64,000 bases of DNA from Tubulanus polymorphus. Lineage: Eukaryota > Nemertea > Palaeonemertea > Tubulaniformes > Tubulanidae. The translations under genes were made by a program, and so were the position numbers. The notes below the pieces were generated by a model. The model searched no databases and had not been told where the DNA came from. It saw only the letters and a program-made list of their open reading frames with translations. The stretch lies in NCBI RefSeq assembly GCF_964204645.1, contig NC_134026.1, positions 30,876,650-30,940,649 on the forward strand. Reading direction: 5' to 3'. Below are positions 14,067-58,260 of the stretch, in pieces (the stretch's first letter is position 1; the number at the start of each line of letters is the position of its first letter).

Positions 14067-14250
14067 GCATGCGGATGCAGTATTTTCTATAGCAGGCTGT
14101 GGCATGCGGATGCAGTATTTTCTATAGCAGGCTGTGGCATGCGTATGCGGTATTTTCTATAGCAGGCTGTGGCATGCGTATGCAGTATTTTCTATAGCAG
14201 GCTGTGGCATGCGTATGCGGTATTTTCTATAGCAGGCTGTGGCATGCGTA
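14067..14250. repeat. 35-bp minisatellite just upstream of MGAT2 coding exon 1
   Basis: gcatgcggatgcagtatttt (later copies gcatgcgtatgc) starts at 14067, 14102, 14137, 14172, 14207 and 14242, a strict 35-bp period with about 5.3 copies. It ends some 44 bp before the acceptor of the first coding exon, so it would be intronic. Confidence 0.85.
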
Positions 14251-14343
14251 TCTAATACAGCATACTGTACGATGATTATTCTATATATTTTTAGGAGCTG
14301 TTCCCATGACGATGACATTGTTGTGAAGGTTGATATCGTAACA

Positions 14344-17300
14344 ATGCGAGGTCATTGTTGCTACGTGTCGAGGAAGACTTTACGCTCAGTCGCTGCGCTG
14401 GTTATAACCGCGATATTGTTCATAAACGTTATAGCGTTTAACCGCAGTTTGAAATATGAAACGGTTCATCCTGACTACGAGATCAGTCGACGTTGGACCG
14501 ACAATAAAAAACTATTCCCAGTCGCGGTGCCGGCTGCGGCTAGTGACCACTCTGTGATAACGGATACTGTTGTTCGAACTGCTCCGGCTGAAACTATTCG
14601 ACCTACGAAGATGCTCGTAATCGTGAATAACGTTCCGATATCGATGCCGTATTCAGATTTATTGAACGTAACGTCCACAAATTTAACGACGTTGAAAACA
14701 GCCATTCGGACCATCAACGAAAAACAGTTCATTTTTAATAAACACATGTTGGATTCAAAGTTCGCGAATAATTCGGACAGCGTCGCGATTCTCGTACAGG
14801 TTCACAATCGAGCGGCGTATTTACGACACCTCGTACGCTCACTCGCCAGGGCAAGAGGAATCGAGAATACGCTCGTTATTTTCAGCCACGATTATTATTC
14901 GCCTGAATTGAACGCCATCACTGAATCGATCGGAGCATTCCCAGTAAGTATTCACTGAATCGATCGGAGCATTCCCAGTAAGTATTCACTGAATCGATCG
15001 GAGCATTCCCAGTAAGTATTCACTGAATCGATCGGAGCATTCCCAGTAAGTATTCACTGAATCGATCGGAGCATTCCCAGTAAGTATTCACTGAATCGAT
15101 CGGAGCATTCCCAGTAAGTATTCGAATCCCTGCCAGGAATCAAACACAGCATTCTTTGTAAGTTTCACGGCAGGGATTCGAACCTGATAGCATCGTTACA
15201 CTCGGCTACAACACAAACCCCTGTCACACTGGACCGAGTGCGCAGGTACAGCTTTGCCGCACAAAAACTTGCGGCACCAATCAGATTGCTCGTTGTATAA
15301 TCGCTGAGGTAAATGTCATGGAACAACTACCGGTATAAATGGGAAAAACCCAGGCTAAAATGAAACGGGATATCTGATTGGCTAATAATGACATCATCTA
15401 AGCTGCACGCTCGGTCTAGTGTGATAGGGTTTTGTACTGTGACAATCTCGATGCCATCAGGTTCGAATCCTGGGGAGGATGGTTTTACGGTATCTAATGG
15501 AGCATTCCCAATAGTACATGTAATATTATCTGATTAGTTTTGAATTGTTCACTGATGCTATAATCTGTTGATAGCTTTTATGAAAATGATGGTGTTTTTA
15601 AACCAGTTTTTGCTGCGCGAAGTCAATGAGAATGTGTTTGTTTTTCTGATTCAGGTTTTGCAGATTTTCTATCCGAAGTCGATGCAACTTTACCCGCGTG
15701 TATTTCCCGGGGAAGATCCCAATGATTGTCCTCGTAATTTACCCAGAAAAAAGTGAGTTTTTACTCGCGAAATCAATGATATTCTCAAATGTTAAATCCA
15801 TATCAATGAATGACTGAGACAATAAATCAGGATTTTACATCCTGGACAGATCCTGGACAGACCGTAAATAATATCACAATCAGGATTAAGTGTTTTGGTC
15901 TATAATTGTATGTGTAAATGTTAAGTTGTTTTAATTGTGTGTATTTTCTAGAGCTGCGATAAAACGTTGTAATAACGCCGGGTATCCGGATAGATACGGA
16001 CATTACAGGGAGGCAAAATATACACAAACCAAACATCACTGGTTCTGGAAGGTAACGTTGGAATCTGAACTCAATTAACCGGGTTTCTGCGACTCCAGGG
16101 TCCGATCTAAGGAATAAGAACCACTCGCCCGGGGGGGCAAGCATATCTGAAATTTTACTTACCCCCTCAAAAATCTACTTGCCCTACATAAGCAGTCCAA
16201 CTGTTGTATCGATTGGCAAAAAGCTTTGAGACAGAATTGCACTAGCCCGGGGGACAAGTGATAATGATAACCTACTTGCCCTTATGATAATATACTTGTC
16301 CCAGGCAATCAGTGCTTAGATCGGACCCTGCGACTCTTTTGGCTGAGAGTCGAAATATCAATATAAATCCATCATTCACAGAATCCTACCTGATGATGCT
16401 GAATTAATTGTTTTCTAGATGAATCGTGTGTTCGGTAACCTTCACATCATGAAAGATTTTCAAGGTCACTTGCTTTTGTTAGAAGAAGATCATTTTGTAG
16501 CTGAGGATTTTTTACATGTGTTAAATTTACTTAAAAATCATCGCGACAGGTAAAAAAAACACGCTTCGTTTTATTGTGCGATCACGTCCAGTCAATCACT
16601 TTCTTACCTTATTCCAAATGGTTTTTATTCGAAATTAAGAAATTGTTTTTCTTATTCTTATCTGTACGATACAGTGGATTACGCTCGTATTTATTATAAA
16701 ACGTTTATCTAATTTCATTTGGTGCGCAATACAGTTAACCATACCTAACTCTGACTAGCCGGGACCAGCAAGAAGCAAGGTCCTAAGATCGGAATTCGAA
16801 TTAGTCAAAAGTCTCCGAGTTGACGATGACTGAGTAAAACAAGGTTTACCGTATTGTGTTTATGCTGAACTGTAATGGATATCTCCTGTATGATATAATA
16901 TAAGCGTAGTTGATTGTATCGCGATGATTCCTTCAATCCCAATCATATAGGAAATTATTTGATTTCAGATGAATGTAATTATTGTGGTGAGCATTCTAAT
17001 CTTCTATCGGTACCTTCTTATTCTCTTATAGATATTGTAAAATATGTCAAATTGTTGATATATTTTCAAAGCTTACGTATTTGCTACTTCGGTGGTGAAG
17101 AACTATGTGAATTGTGATGTCGGAGATTGGGACAGCAATATGTATTATATATGTGTTAATAGATATGGCTTGGTTGAAAGATATTTCTGCATTTTTTTCA
17201 CAGCTCAACTCCTAAATCTTCATAAATTACTGGGCAGCAACATCTAGTTCAGGGTGGCCACTTACTTACCTGTGAATCTGGGAAAATTCGGGGAAATTTC

Positions 17301-19511
17301 TTTTCTGTGAGGTAGGGCATTTTGCGGCGAAAATCTGTCTGATTACTGGATTTTGTAGAAAAAAAGCTAAAAATCAAGGAAATTCATCGAGATTGTTCGT
17401 AAAATCAACAGTTTCAGCAGTAATGTCTTACGTATTTGACTGTGTCAGGGAATAGTCGGGGAAAACCCAAGTCAAATAAAAGTGGCCGCCCTATAGTTAT
17501 ATCCATCCTATACATCATACTGATCTGGAATAAGCACCGCACTACTGTGGCAAGCGAGGATCTGTCAGGTGGCGCTAGTAGTAATTCCGTCATACATGCT
17601 TCGATATCTGCTGCATTTCGTTTAAATTCAAATCAACTTTTCTTCCCTCTATCCTAAATCATTACTAGGGACAGATAATCTTGTAAAGACTCTTTCTTGA
17701 GACCAGTTGTGAATTTAGATTCGGAAGTTTAAAAAAATCCAGCAAAAATAATTTAGTTTCATCTGCCTACAAAAAACTGAATGTTACTCCTGCCATCTAG
17801 TTGCCAGTACCTCACACGATCATGAACTATTACGGTAATTATTATAATGTTAAATTGATGATTCTATTGTTTTTCAGCACATGTCCAGATTGTAATATTT
17901 TAACGATAGGAAATTACGATAAACGACCAACTTTTTCACCATTTTCTGGGAAAGTAAGTTATTAATAACTCGGGATCTCGCAGTTATCATAGATTCTCTT
18001 CTGGATCCGGTTCGGGAGTTTGAGTAAGAGTTAACTCTGAGTTCTCATTTTCATGAGTGAAATCTGAACTTTTACCCGTGGAACTGGATCCAATTCAATT
18101 TGCTCAAATATAGATGATTGGTCCTCTGACTGAGATCTGAGGCGTGCGCTTATAGTCGACTGTATTTCTTGCGGGATTTGTTTAAATGTTAATTTCTTCT
18201 TTTGATTTTTATTCTATAATCAACACAGTTGGAAGTATCGTTATGGGTATCGGCTAAACACAATATGGGCATGGCTCTGAATTCAACTACTTGGAATAAA
18301 ATCAAGCGATGTAGTAACGAATTTTGTAAATTCGATGATTACAATTGGGATTGGACATTACAGTATATCGGAATGAAATGCATTCCCGGTCGTTTGAAAG
18401 TGATGGCTCTGAAATCACCGAGAGTTTTTCACATCGGGGAATGGTAAGTATTCATTCATTACTCATCAGTTCATCGCGATCATTTACAGTTTAACTCTCA
18501 CCATTGAAGTCATCATTAGCCGCGTTCACACTAGATTCGGCGCTTACAAAGTACCGTACTTCACTGGTGCCGAATTCACCAAAATACGGCGCTTATAACA
18601 GCCAGTTACGTTCACACTACGAGTCGGCAATTCGGCACTTAGTAAGCCCGGTATAGTAGTCACCCAGTGTGCCAATAGAGGGGAGTGTAACTAGTGCTAA
18701 GTGTATTGTACTACGCAGATGTGAATACGCGGCTAGCTAAGCGTTGAATCTGCGTTCACACTACAGAGAATACGCGGCCAGCTCAGTGCCGTACTGAGAT
18801 CGGGTTTTCTGCTTAATAAGCGGCGTATTTCAGTACGGAACTGAATAGGCCTCGAATAGGCCTCGAATAATTTCCTAGTGTGAACGCTTAGTACCGTACT
18901 GAAATCCTAGTGTGAATGCAGCTATTGTAGCTGTGACAACTTGTACTTGAATTAGATGTATTATTTATTAAGTGTAAGTCGTCATTTGGATCGAATTGAG
19001 ATTAGAATATAGAGTTGTTTACCCTAGTTTAACTGAACTCAAGTCGACGAGACTTGAGGGGCTGGTTCCATAGTCGAGACTTAAGTCTAAAAGTGGTCTT
19101 TAATCTTAAGACTGGTTTTAAGCTGTTAGATGAGCTATAGAACAAAGATAGTCTTAGACCAGTCTTAAGTCTAAGTCATGACTTTGGAAACGGCCCGAGG
19201 AGTAAAAGTCATTGCAACTGACGATTTATCAAAATGATGACTTACACTTTTGTCGATAATTCAGGTTTTTCATAAATTCAGTTCTAATTTTCTCATTGAA
19301 TTACAGCGGAATTCACCATAAAGGGAAAGTTTGTTTACCCGACCAAAAAGCAGCTCAACTCGACGACTTACTACACAAGAATACAAACTTTCTTTATCCG
19401 AATTACTTAAAAACATTAGGCTGGTCGAAACAACAAGCTCGTATTCCAAAACCAAACGGAGGTTGGGGTGATATCAGAGATCATCAACTATGTAGTAGTT
19501 TTATACAATGA
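14344..19511 (+). CDS. MGAT2: Alpha-1,6-mannosyl-glycoprotein 2-beta-N-acetylglucosaminyltransferase (GlcNAc-transferase II)
   Basis: Adds GlcNAc from UDP-GlcNAc to the alpha-1,6 mannose arm, converting hybrid to complex N-glycans in the Golgi lumen. Seven coding exons: 14344-14943, 15655-15752, 15952-16051, 16419-16549, 17878-17953, 18229-18443 and 19307-19511. All have GT-AG borders and agreeing phases, giving 474 residues (the human enzyme has 447). It is a type II membrane protein: short cytosolic start MRGHCCYVSRKTLR, membrane anchor about residues 14-32, then stem and catalytic domain. Family hallmarks are VQVHNRAAYLRHLV, LVIFSHDYYSPELNAI, YGHYREAKYTQTKHHW, the metal-site EED at 288-290, DDYNWDWTLQY and NGGWGDIRDHQLC. 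The start at 14344 is preferred because an acceptor (tatttttag, AG at 14293-14294) precedes it; frame upstream is intronic. Exon 1's donor region is tandemly repeated. Human MGAT2 has an intronless coding region, unlike this copy. A possible poly(A) signal is at 20482. Confidence 0.95.
14920..15123 (+). repeat. Six perfect 34-bp copies of the MGAT2 exon 1 end and splice donor
   Basis: The unit starts actgaatcgatcggagcatt and ends cccagtaagtattc. It begins at 14920, 14954, 14988, 15022, 15056 and 15090 without a mismatch. The first copy consists of the last 24 coding bases of exon 1 plus 10 intron bases including the donor GTAAGT. Joining at the first donor (after 14943) restores the family sequence GAFP-VLQIFYP. 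Use of any later donor would include the in-frame TGA at 14956-14958. Confidence 0.95.
15140..15485. mobile_element. Two tRNA-like remnants in opposite orientation
   Basis: 15145-15217 on the minus strand reads as a tRNA-like head with B box aggttcgaatccctgcc. 15435-15480 on the plus strand carries aggttcgaatcctgggg. The MITE at 15218-15430 sits between them. All lie in MGAT2 intron 1. Confidence 0.45.
15218..15430. mobile_element. MITE in MGAT2 intron 1
   Basis: Imperfect inverted ends of about 27 bp: left CCCCTGTCACACTGGACC then GAGTGCGCAG, right CTGCACGCTCGGTCTAG then TGTGATAGGG. The 213-bp body has no open frame. Confidence 0.7.
16096..16330 (+). mobile_element. hAT-like MITE, copy 1 (MGAT2 intron 3)
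   Basis: Perfect 16-bp inverted ends CAGGGTCCGATCTAAG and CTTAGATCGGACCCTG enclose about 235 bp. The flanks share cgactc, extendable to tgcgactc if the terminal bases are shared. CAGGG termini are typical of hAT elements. The interior contains acttgccc / gggacaagtg complementary stretches. A second copy is at 38266-38512. Confidence 0.7.
18519..18922. mobile_element. MITE in MGAT2 intron 6
   Basis: Ends GCCGCGTTCACACTAGATTC and its near-complement GAAATCCTAGTGTGAATGCAGC enclose about 400 bp and are flanked by TA on both sides. The interior repeats gttcacacta-type blocks at about 18611 and 18754, suggesting nested or duplicated copies. Confidence 0.65.
19059..19196 (-). mobile_element. PIF/Harbinger-like MITE, copy 2 (MGAT2 intron 6)
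   Basis: A 138-bp element, reverse orientation to the 7520 copy, with ends GGGCTGGTTCCATAGTCGAG and GGAAACGGCCC. It is flanked by GAG on both sides (19056-19058 and 19197-19199). Confidence 0.75.
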
Positions 19512-31989: not shown

Positions 31990-32445
31990 AGGCTTAGATT
32001 TAAGACCAGCGCAAGCTTAGCTTAGGACCAGTTTAAGTCCATTTTGGTTCTATAGCCAATCTAACAACTTAGGACTAGTTTAAGCTCAATTTGGTTCTAT
32101 AGCCAATCTAACAACTTAAGACCAGTTTAAGCTCAATTTGGTTCTATAGCCAATCTAACAACTTAAGACCAGTCTAAGTCCATTTTGGTTCTATAGCCAA
32201 TCTAACAACTTAAGACCAGTTTAAGTCCATTTTGGTTCTATAGCCAATCTAACAACTAAAGACCAGTCTAAGTCCATTTTGGTTCTATAGCCAATCTAAA
32301 AACTTAAGACCATTCTAAGTCCATTTTGGTTCTATAGCCAATCTAACAACTTAAGACCAGTCTAAGTCCATTTTGGTTCTATAGCCAATCTAACAACTTA
32401 AGACCAGTCTAAGTCCATTTTGGTTCTATAGCCAATCTAGTCATG
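31990..32445. repeat. 47-bp satellite array derived from the MITE core, array 1
   Basis: tatagccaatctaacaactt recurs with anchors at 32051, 32098, 32145, 32192, 32239, 32286, 32333, 32380 and 32427, an exact 47-bp period. The unit (aacttaagaccagtctaag, then ccattttggttctatagcc) matches the centre of the MITEs at 7520, 19059 and 63499. Confidence 0.9.
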
Positions 32446-51682: not shown

Positions 51683-51955
51683 AGTCCATAATGGTTCCAA
51701 CCAATATAACAACTTGAGACCAGTCTAAGCTCATTTTGGTTCTATAACCAATCTAACAACTTAAGACCAGTCTAAACTCATGTTGGTTCTATAACCAATC
51801 TAACAACTTAAGACCAGTCTAAGCTCATTTTGGATCTATAAACAATCTAATAAGACTAAGACCAGTTTAAGCTCATTTTGGCTCTATAACCAATCTAACA
51901 ACTTAAGACCAGTCTAAGCTCATTTGAATTCTGCAGCTAATCTAACTTATGAATT
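51683..51955. repeat. 47-bp satellite array derived from the MITE core, array 2
   Basis: About six copies of aaccaatctaacaacttaag then accagtctaagctcattttg, same unit as 31990-32445. The last copies diverge near 51930. Confidence 0.88.
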
Positions 51956-54900: not shown

Positions 54901-57573
54901 AATATGTGCCTTTTTGCAAAGAGGAATAAAGCATGTAGTACTGTAGGTGTCTGGATTCTGATGTACCCCTGGACCCGACCCTACTGAGCCATCTTTCACA
55001 TATACTCAATTGATGTTTCTTTTTGTAGATTTAACTGTGTAAATGTTTTAAGGAGTTCATGTAGGTTAAATTGAGCAATTCTAGAGACATCGAGGAGAGT
55101 CGAATACAATATATTTCATTAGTTTGTCGCCGCTGATTGGGCACGGGATGGGGCGGGCAACAGCACCATCTTGTGATTTAAGTAAGTTTCGATTGAGTTT
55201 TATTTCGGGACGAATCGATGACAGGAAATACTTGACAACATTTAGTCGAAGTCCCTGACTGGGAAATAGCAGCGTCTCGCGTCATACCCAGTCAAGTTTA
55301 TATCAATTATTAGAAGATCTTCCATTTTCCTTTTAATATCACAAAAATGGCATTTTAATTGCGCAAAGTTCCATCCATATCATTAAACACAAGTCATCAA
55401 TGATTTTTTCTCTACCCCTGCGGTGGTGATTCGATCGGATAGTTATTATCAAAATCTTCCGCGTTTTATAAGAAATACAATTAAGAGCTATCTTTCTTTC
55501 GTTCGCTAATGGATGAATGTCTATGATTAGATAAATCACATTTTCTGCCCTAAGCGTTTTCTTAACTTCGCATCATTGAACACGAGAGCTTTTTCATTGT
55601 CTGTTTTATTATAAATGAATGATTTATAAAATAGAAATCTACGTAGATGAATCGATGGTCTATGAATAGGTCGACAGTGGTTTAAGCCATTCCAGGGTTC
55701 AGTGTTTGAATCCTGGTGGTAGCCGAAGTTTATTGGTCGAAGATTCTTCTCTTGCCGTTTTTGTTTTTTATTCGACTGGTTTATCACAGGCCCCGATACT
55801 TGAACTATCTATATCCTCAAGAAGCGATCGATGTTTCTTTCAGATCAGACAGCGGTTAATAGGATGTCTCTTCTCGTTTATACATCTTCAAATGGGGACG
55901 ATTTGCCTCTCATTTTTAAACCTGATTGATTTGATGTGTTGGTGTCCTTTACAAATCCACCGCACCTGCCGTGAACGAAACAGAATCGGGTCTCTAGTTT
56001 CTAACGCGCTGTTGCTCGATTCTAACAAATTTCAAGTCGCATGTTTGAAGTTATCAGGACCAATAGACATTTATATCTGTTTTTCTACGCTTTTTACAAT
56101 TTTCAATTATATCTATTAGTTTTTGTGTAAAAGTTAGTTTTTTTTCTTTATTGCATTTCTCTTTTTTTTTCTTCACTTTTCTCTTTTGATGGACCTGTTT
56201 TATATAAACTATTCCTTAGTTTCTACAGACCCCTCCAGGTCTAATTTACTGTATTTTGTATTATGCTTTGTACACTATGCTGTAAATTATATTCGAAAAA
56301 TAAACTGTTCAAAATTCAAAAAATTCAAAAACGTCGCTGAAAATTGCGCGGATATGTCTTGTTGATATTATGATGATGGCAATCCGCTCATCATACGGTC
56401 GGTTACTCGAACAGACAAACACGGTTAGGTAAACTCCATCGCTGATAATACGGTAATACAGGATGAAACCATACAGCAGTCAACGATCGTGTGGTATATA
56501 TATATACTTCAGCAATCTTTTTATGGATTGAGAGTCGTCGGTAAATCCAGCCATGAATAAATGATTTGGCTCATCGCGTCACAGCCTAACTACTGTATGG
56601 ACTATACAGATTCAACTACCACCAGTTTTCTATTTCTAGCCGATATAATCTTATAAAAACCATCGATGAAACACTCTGAGTCCGTGTGTGATAAAGATGA
56701 TATTGAAAATCCCTGCACACTAAGAACGAAAAACTAACGAAATGTTTTCTTGAGCTTGTGTAGTTTATTTGACGTTCCGACCTTACCGTAAAAGTCATCT
56801 ACAGGAATATTTGTCTACAATTCAGAGCAAAGAAATTAATCAATAGTGATAAATTGTGAAAACAGCTACAAAAATAAACTGAGCGCATAAAGCAGGGAAC
56901 TAACTATAAGAGGTAGTTACAGTTTCCCTTATACAGGGAATAGTTATGATACAATTTTCATTCGTGCCACAAAACGTAATCAATTACATATCTAAAAACC
57001 TGGTTGATGATTTTCATCTGTGAAATGAATAATTAATTTTTCGTGTCGCGGTATATGATATGTCTCTGAAGTTGATTCTCGAGGACTATTCTGTTTCGGG
57101 TATATTTGATTATTTCGCACTAATTTGTTCAACCAGTGACAATTCTTTCCGCTGACTCTATTTCGAGTAGCCGATGTTGCCGTCATTTGCAAACCTATTT
57201 AGGATTGAGTTACATTTGATGTCCCGCGTTTTTGTCGATTCGCAGCCGCCGTTCCGAAGCCCGAGGAAATCAAAATAAACATTGGTTTGTTGAGTAATTG
57301 GCAATAGGAAGTTGAATGGGCTGATGTTTCCCTCAGGGGGGTTCAAGGCCATCCATTTCAATTTACCTTAAATACCCTTAAAGCTGTTGTCATGGTAATT
57401 GTGTATAAGAAATATGGACGTGAATTTGTAAGATTTCCTCTAGAGATGTGCTTTTTGCAAATGTAGAAAATGAAATTTTGTAATTTCACAAGTTAACAAT
57501 TCGTCGCGGAACTTTCATCGTGCATCGCTGTTCCACTGCATCGCTTGAAGCGCAGTTCTGAAATATGCTATTT
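51956..57573. other. Non-coding, no supported gene
   Basis: No exon could be supported. 54891-54928 has an 11-bp inverted pair tgcaaaaaggc / gcctttttgca. 55690-56330 may be a decayed retroposon, ending with aataaactgttcaaaattc and short ttcaaaa repeats. 56500 has a short TA tract. The remaining sequence appears unique. Confidence 0.35.
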
Positions 57574-58260
57574 TAAGTTGTGAGATCGCTTATAGAACCA
57601 AATGAGTTTAGACTGGTCTTAAGTTGTTAGATTGACTATAGAACCGAAATGAGCTTAGACTTGTCTTAAGTTGTTAGATTGGTTATAGAACCGAAATGAG
57701 CTTAGACTTGTCTTAAGTTGTTAGATCGCTTATAGAACCAAATGAGTTTAGACTGGTCTTAAGTTGTTAGATTGACTATAGAACCGAAATGAGCTTAGAC
57801 TTGTCTTAAGTTGTTAGATTGGTTATAGAACCGAAATGAGCTTAGACTTGTCTTAAGTTGTTAGATTGGTTATAGAACCGAAATGAGCTTAGACTGGTCT
57901 TAATTTGTTAGATTGACTATAGAAACCGAAATGAGCTTAAACTGGTCTTAAGTTGTTAGATTGACTATAGAAACCGAAATGAGCTTAGACTTGTCTTAAG
58001 TTGTTAGATTGGTTAAAGAACCAACATGAGCTTAGACTGGTCTTAAGTTGTTAGATTGACTATAGAAACCGAAATGAATTCAGACTGGTCTTAAGTAGTT
58101 AGATTGACTATAGAAACCGAAATGAATTCAGACTGGTCTTAAGTTGTTATATATTTGTTAAAGAACATAGCTTAAACCAAATTTAAATTTAAAACCAGTC
58201 TTAATATTTGAGAGAGCGTTTCGATTTAAGTCTCGACTATGGACGTCTCGGCTCTCGAAA
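57574..58260. repeat. 47-bp satellite array derived from the MITE core, array 3, with one MITE end
   Basis: About twelve copies, inverted relative to arrays 1 and 2: cttaagttgttagattgac then tatagaaccgaaatgag. gatcgcttatagaaccaaat occurs at 57584 and 57724, a three-unit step, so a trimer was duplicated. The array runs into tttaagtctcgactatgga near 58235, which is the inner and terminal part of the MITE, showing physical continuity. Confidence 0.9.

Follow-up and report, generated by a model that had tools for sequence, protein, structure and literature searches.

Minisatellite-like duplications of intron–exon borders, termed mirages, have been described in the amphioxus Adh3, globin, troponin C and PGBD5 genes (PMC3087553, PMC3902484). 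Their units measure 10–72 bp in Adh3, 60 and 108 bp in PGBD5 and 150–160 bp in the globins. The Adh3 data and RT-PCR of the globins are said to show regular splicing, and it has been suggested that new introns may arise from mirages (PMC3087553, PMC3902484). Our literature search returned no mirage outside amphioxus among the matches listed, most subscription journals lying outside its coverage.

Here we describe a perfect tandem array at the end of MGAT2 exon 1, located in a 64,000-nucleotide stretch of DNA (the window), together with related arrays elsewhere in the same genome. As in the amphioxus cases (Adh3, the globins BflGb6 and BflGb9, troponin C and PGBD5), both 5′ and 3′ borders are affected and splice signals are duplicated. 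The amphioxus clusters are also reported to undergo concerted evolution that excludes their edges, a pattern matched at the present locus (PMC3087553, PMC3902484). Unlike amphioxus, the genome studied here carries protostome-type microRNAs; and while regular splicing was reported in amphioxus, the present arrays are known from DNA.

More distant relatives have been reported. The human internal tandem repeats of De Grassi and Ciccarelli (2009) resemble the present arrays in that minisatellite units of about 30 bp on average alter gene structure, some of them at exon–intron boundaries (PMC2812944). They differ in being variable, in lying in primate segmental duplications and in that those at boundaries are said to form novel introns, frequently alongside an alternative transcript in which the repeat stays exonic (PMC2812944). 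In potato RdRp, too, a tandemly duplicated segment extends over a splice border and takes its signals along, but that duplication made a new intron (PMC4974935), whereas the present one multiplies a donor and gives no sign of a new intron. Tandem duplication as treated in a review of intron gain is a further relative (PMC3443670), and an earthworm gene has intron minisatellites with exon duplications that are missing from the transcript (PMC12783039). The twin 5′ splice sites of ERα exon 1 are comparable donors with nearly the same spacing, 33 nt versus 34 nt in MGAT2. There, two non-identical sites are present and the intron-proximal one is used, while in MGAT2 six sites are identical and the exon-side one alone is productive (PMC6002489).

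Results

MGAT2 exon 1 ends in a perfect tandem array

The gene model consists of six exons joined by hand, which yield the first 406 residues; the 3′ part of the gene lies outside the model. The translation matches the MGAT2 family profile (Pfam PF05060, E=6.1e-120). It aligns with PDB 5vcm, which we take to be the human protein, at E=1.1e-93 and without gaps over 261 residues (query 146–406), spanning the exon 1/exon 2 join. These matches agree with an earlier note on this DNA, which had named the gene MGAT2 from the sequence. At window positions 14932–14943, the end of exon 1, the gene encodes GAFP where 5vcm has NFCP, and a cysteine is absent within the array unit. The downstream cysteine in DCPR is retained in the same alignment.

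TRF run on the window places a repeat of period 34 with 6.1 copies and 100% matches at 14918–15123, and exact period-34 identity covers the same 206 bp with zero mismatch (Table 1). In each unit, the eight intron bases GTAAGTAT come after 26 coding bases from exon 1. The earlier note had already recognized the perfect sixfold repeat with its GTAAGT donor, and all six donors were located. Its end point is kept, but it placed the start at 14920, with 24 coding bases per unit; since exact identity begins at 14918, the correct count is 26. The unit spans an authentic exon–intron border, fixed by the ungapped MGAT2 alignment across the join, and the splice signal is thereby present in six copies. 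Intron 1 ends at an acceptor located outside the array.

Table 1 Features of the MGAT2 locus (window positions) and of the related PDK arrays
Feature	Position	Strand	Remarks
MGAT2 coding exon 1	14344..14943	+	ATG 14344, 600 nt, 200 codons, phase 0 end
34-bp tandem array	14918..15123	+	6.06 copies without mismatch; unit of the 26 final coding bases + GTAAGTAT
Donor 1 GTAAGT	14944..14949	+	sole donor among six yielding MGAT2 protein
In-frame TGA	14956..14958	+	kept by all five later donors; first stop met
Donors 2–6	14978, 15012, 15046, 15080, 15114 (14978..15119)	+	in-frame stop included by each
Diverged relative of 34-bp unit	15137–15177	+	seventh GTAAGT at 15158; 0/1000 shuffles
High-copy element with inverted ends	15168..15470, limits approximate	.	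arms 15174–15195 / 15449–15470; between the two relatives
Second diverged relative of 34-bp unit	15484–15516	+	donor destroyed; 0/1000 shuffles
MGAT2 exon 2 (VLQIFYP...)	15655..15752	+	
Further MGAT2 exons	15952–16051, 16419–16549, 17878–17953, 18229–18443 (15952..18443)	+	
PDK donor array	L002:1498–1740 (C6)		perfect 34-bp x 7, seven donors
PDK acceptor array, same exon	L002:1172–1397 (C6)		33- and 36-nt units, six acceptors

Reading frames computed for all six donors bear out the claim that donor 1 alone keeps the frame and that any later choice includes the TGA at 14956. Leaky use of a later donor would place a stop upstream of several exon joins, and such transcripts would be expected substrates of nonsense-mediated decay. 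If the gene works, donor 1 is used at least in part, because it is the only one of the six to make MGAT2 and the exons in the model are open and conserved. From the sequence, this exon-side site is most likely the working one. Two points count against its use and would favour donor 6. Between two comparable donors the intron-proximal one is reported to be favoured, for reasons not known (PMC6002489), and the predicted local RNA accessibility at MGAT2 is highest at donor 6 (0.21 versus 0.018–0.046 at donors 1–5). At the PDK array described below, the first donor has the highest predicted accessibility (0.034 versus at most 0.006 elsewhere).

A second array lies upstream of MGAT2 exon 1, at window 14067–14251 (35 bp x 5.3 by TRF). 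Its unit carries the acceptor-like TATTTTCTATAG and could affect a 5′ UTR exon. A 47-bp tandem repeat family occurs at window 32021–32439, 51699–51925 and 57573–58149, the third in opposite orientation as judged by eye. A search for tRNA genes at 14900–15700 found none, and no Rfam family matched the window at gathering scores.

Intron 1 contains diverged relatives of the unit

The intron carries two such relatives of the 34-bp unit, both downstream of the array. Their 30-nt cores show 63% and 77% identity in the repeat search, and both score 17 against the unit. In neither case did any of 1000 dinucleotide shuffles reach this score, nor did any of 230 other segments of the window, counting both strands. 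Earlier shuffle runs gave 0/200 for the whole stretch and 1/200 for 15125–15490. The inverted-end element between the relatives is present in many copies: 40 places, itself included, match at least 277 of 315 bases among the 40 scored of 1704 candidates, and the best other copy among these 40 is 86% identical. Because the first relative runs about 10 bases into the edge of the element, any order of events is tentative.

The locus thus combines a homogenised core of six identical copies with two diverged edge copies whose descent is judged by similarity. The locus would most simply be read as an array that is older and was once longer, whose intron-side copies decayed and whose core was homogenised. 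The shortness of the relatives counts against an old array, as do the similarity-based case for their descent and the 1/200 of the earlier run on 15125–15490. The earlier suggestion of a "recent or homogenised" expansion holds for the homogenised core; the two relatives favour an old array over a recent one.

Exon ends in other genes lie in similar arrays

The array used as query has one other match in the genome (E=1.5e-18), in a pyruvate dehydrogenase kinase (PDK) gene on contig C6. The gene was identified by PDB PDK2 (E=7.8e-24), with an alignment crossing the join INQH^TLIF. The first donor of this array leads to PDK. With donor 2 the frame is shifted and runs into a stop after the join, and donors 3–7 all bring in a stop. 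The six acceptors duplicated at the same exon are all in frame and open, and the upstream ones would add modules such as GVIEMIFDIFQ without a stop. The MGAT2 and PDK arrays share the period of 34 and the 16-mer CAGTAAGTATTCACTG, which has 12 matches genome-wide (5 and 7, respectively) and none elsewhere. Outside the 16-mer the units differ.

Two further exon ends were placed by homology up to the end of the exon, without the next exon. An exon of REV3 (PDB polymerase zeta, E=1.1e-24, 80/83 residues up to the exon end) ends in a diverged array of 22-bp units, of which there are at least 16. Over the 377 bases read, GTAAGT is kept in 7 copies and GTAGGT occurs in 3, and a stop is included by all five later sites tested. 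The third case is a myosin exon (Myosin_head, E=5.1e-21, the match reaching the exon's end), whose end and donor recur at a period of 70 bp. TRF reports 2.4 copies with 83% matches, and a third copy was seen by eye. The MGAT2 case is accordingly not unique, as three more homology-recognised exon ends are duplicated with their donors.

The duplicated donors might regulate gene output. Donors 2–6 would then be used appreciably, the stop-containing mRNAs degraded, and the copy number would set MGAT2 output. The retention of the stop by all five later donors and the several exon joins downstream fit this proposal, and with identical donors the intron-proximal preference would move use downstream (PMC6002489). 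However, the amphioxus mirages are reported without disturbed splicing (PMC3087553, PMC3902484). The later donors of PDK and REV3 break the frame too, as would be expected from the mere inclusion of intron sequence. We regard such regulation as unlikely, and the broader version, in which donor copy number would be a heritable and perhaps somatically variable dial for MGAT2, PDK and REV3 output via stop-containing forms, as similarly improbable.

Donor-bearing arrays are not in excess

In the surveys of myosin and kinesin genes, the ends of the matches stood in for those of exons, as an approximation, and questionable loci were judged by eye. For myosin, 30 loci were cut from 91 matches. An exon border lies inside an array in one of the 30, the myosin exon described above. 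By eye, arrays at L053, L076 and L077 are close to an exon border and not on it. In the kinesin survey, none of 40 stretches (of 138 matches) has a border in an array at a TRF score of at least 50; by eye, arrays at L115/L119 and L090 are near exons and do not include the splice site. TRF repeats cover 4.3% of the 30 myosin loci, 2.1% of the 40 kinesin stretches and 10.4% of the window (rows picked by hand). A separate observation concerns C4:4125126–4126944 (minus strand), where the myosin-head profile matches four times in tandem, each time over roughly the same positions (112/119/121 to 152), and the arrangement looks like a cluster of alternative exons.

Triple donor patterns were counted genome-wide together with reversed-pattern controls, both counts being dominated by a few large repeats. 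Triple GTAAGT occurs 505 times (278+227) versus 1541 (674+867) for its control, triple AGGTAAGT 30 (16+14) versus 107 (54+53), and triple AGTAAGT 164 (72+92) versus 674 (294+380). All three patterns are rarer than their controls, and a genome-wide excess of donor-bearing arrays was rejected. At least 17 distinct arrays were counted by hand from the listed AGGTAAGT and AGTAAGT matches plus PDK, and ten of them were read. Three lie at homology-recognised exon ends (MGAT2, PDK and REV3), one at a possible exon end (L019, an 81-codon open frame with no Pfam match). The other six (L015, L026, L033, L120, L122 and L123) gave no exon sign in open frames or by eye, with Pfam used for L123 only. Because MGAT2 and PDK were known beforehand, the unbiased share is one recognised and one possible exon end in eight arrays. 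A 34-bp donor-like array at C6:889824 is without a long coding frame.

These counts bear on the idea that a dedicated process seeds arrays preferentially at splice donors in this genome. Four homology-recognised exon ends do lie in arrays with their donors, and the MGAT2 and PDK arrays have in common their period and a 16-mer unique to them. Against this stand the triple-donor counts below those of the reversed controls and the rarity of bordering arrays in the myosin and kinesin surveys. As donor patterns are not in excess, the counts lend no support to a special seeding of arrays at donors, which we consider very improbable. It suffices that minisatellites arise in the ordinary way in a genome that is rich in them and tolerates arrays on splice borders. 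Also very improbable is an assembly artefact, in which the real genome would have fewer copies: the copies show zero divergence and a draft genome mis-assembled an amphioxus mirage (PMC3087553), but long reads should easily span 206 bp, the 267.8-Mb assembly comprises just 77 contigs, and diverged copies are present in the arrays at the PDK acceptor, REV3 and myosin.

Discussion

We interpret the MGAT2 array as a mirage, in which a minisatellite happens to lie across an exon–intron border, and give this reading a probability of roughly 0.8. From the DNA we infer its origin, its homogenisation, the use of donor 1 and the fate of leaky transcripts. In the proposed course of events, a tandem duplication would have linked exon base 14918 to the intron after 15121, with only TC in common between the two ends. 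Slippage or unequal exchange may then have spread and homogenised the 34-bp unit, the authentic donor being copied in every cycle. Older copies on the intron side would have escaped homogenisation and decayed, with the inverted-end element between them. Donor 1, on the exon side, would do the splicing, and the later donors would become silent or leaky intron sequence. Leakage to donors 2–6 would yield stop-containing transcripts.

MicroRNA families offer a view of the host lineage. The mir-279 family is of protostome origin, and to our knowledge both bantam and mir-279 are absent from amphioxus. In this genome bantam has a match of 62.9 bits, just over the cut-off of 61. Nineteen mir-279 matches were found genome-wide, eight over the cut-off and eleven below, and mir-279-like hairpin clusters are located at C1:23624176–23624990, C10:11677477–11684351 and C10:12479095–12479891. 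Bantam is described as of protostome origin and absent from vertebrates and cnidarians (PMC8016320). The matches to these two families suggest that the host is probably a protostome and not a cephalochordate. Contig C77 was considered as the mitochondrial genome and rejected, as the 10,000 bases read of its 15,646 contain no tRNA and, on inspection by eye, encode no protein of mitochondrial type.

The exon-end repeat at MGAT2 is of a known but little-studied kind that is present here in several genes. It constitutes a natural test of the choice among identical splice sites, to which the other genes add further copy numbers and an acceptor version. The mechanism of choice between two comparable 5′ splice sites has been called not known (PMC6002489). 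Six identical donors 34 nt apart, with the exon-side one productive, present the opposite of the intron-proximal preference reported in that work, and the spacings of 22, 34 and 70 nt form a natural series for spliceosome choice among equal sites. Should the host indeed be a protostome, mirages would not be peculiar to amphioxus. Genomes rich in minisatellites may then give rise to them more widely as a by-product, and introns may change by drawing on them as raw material.
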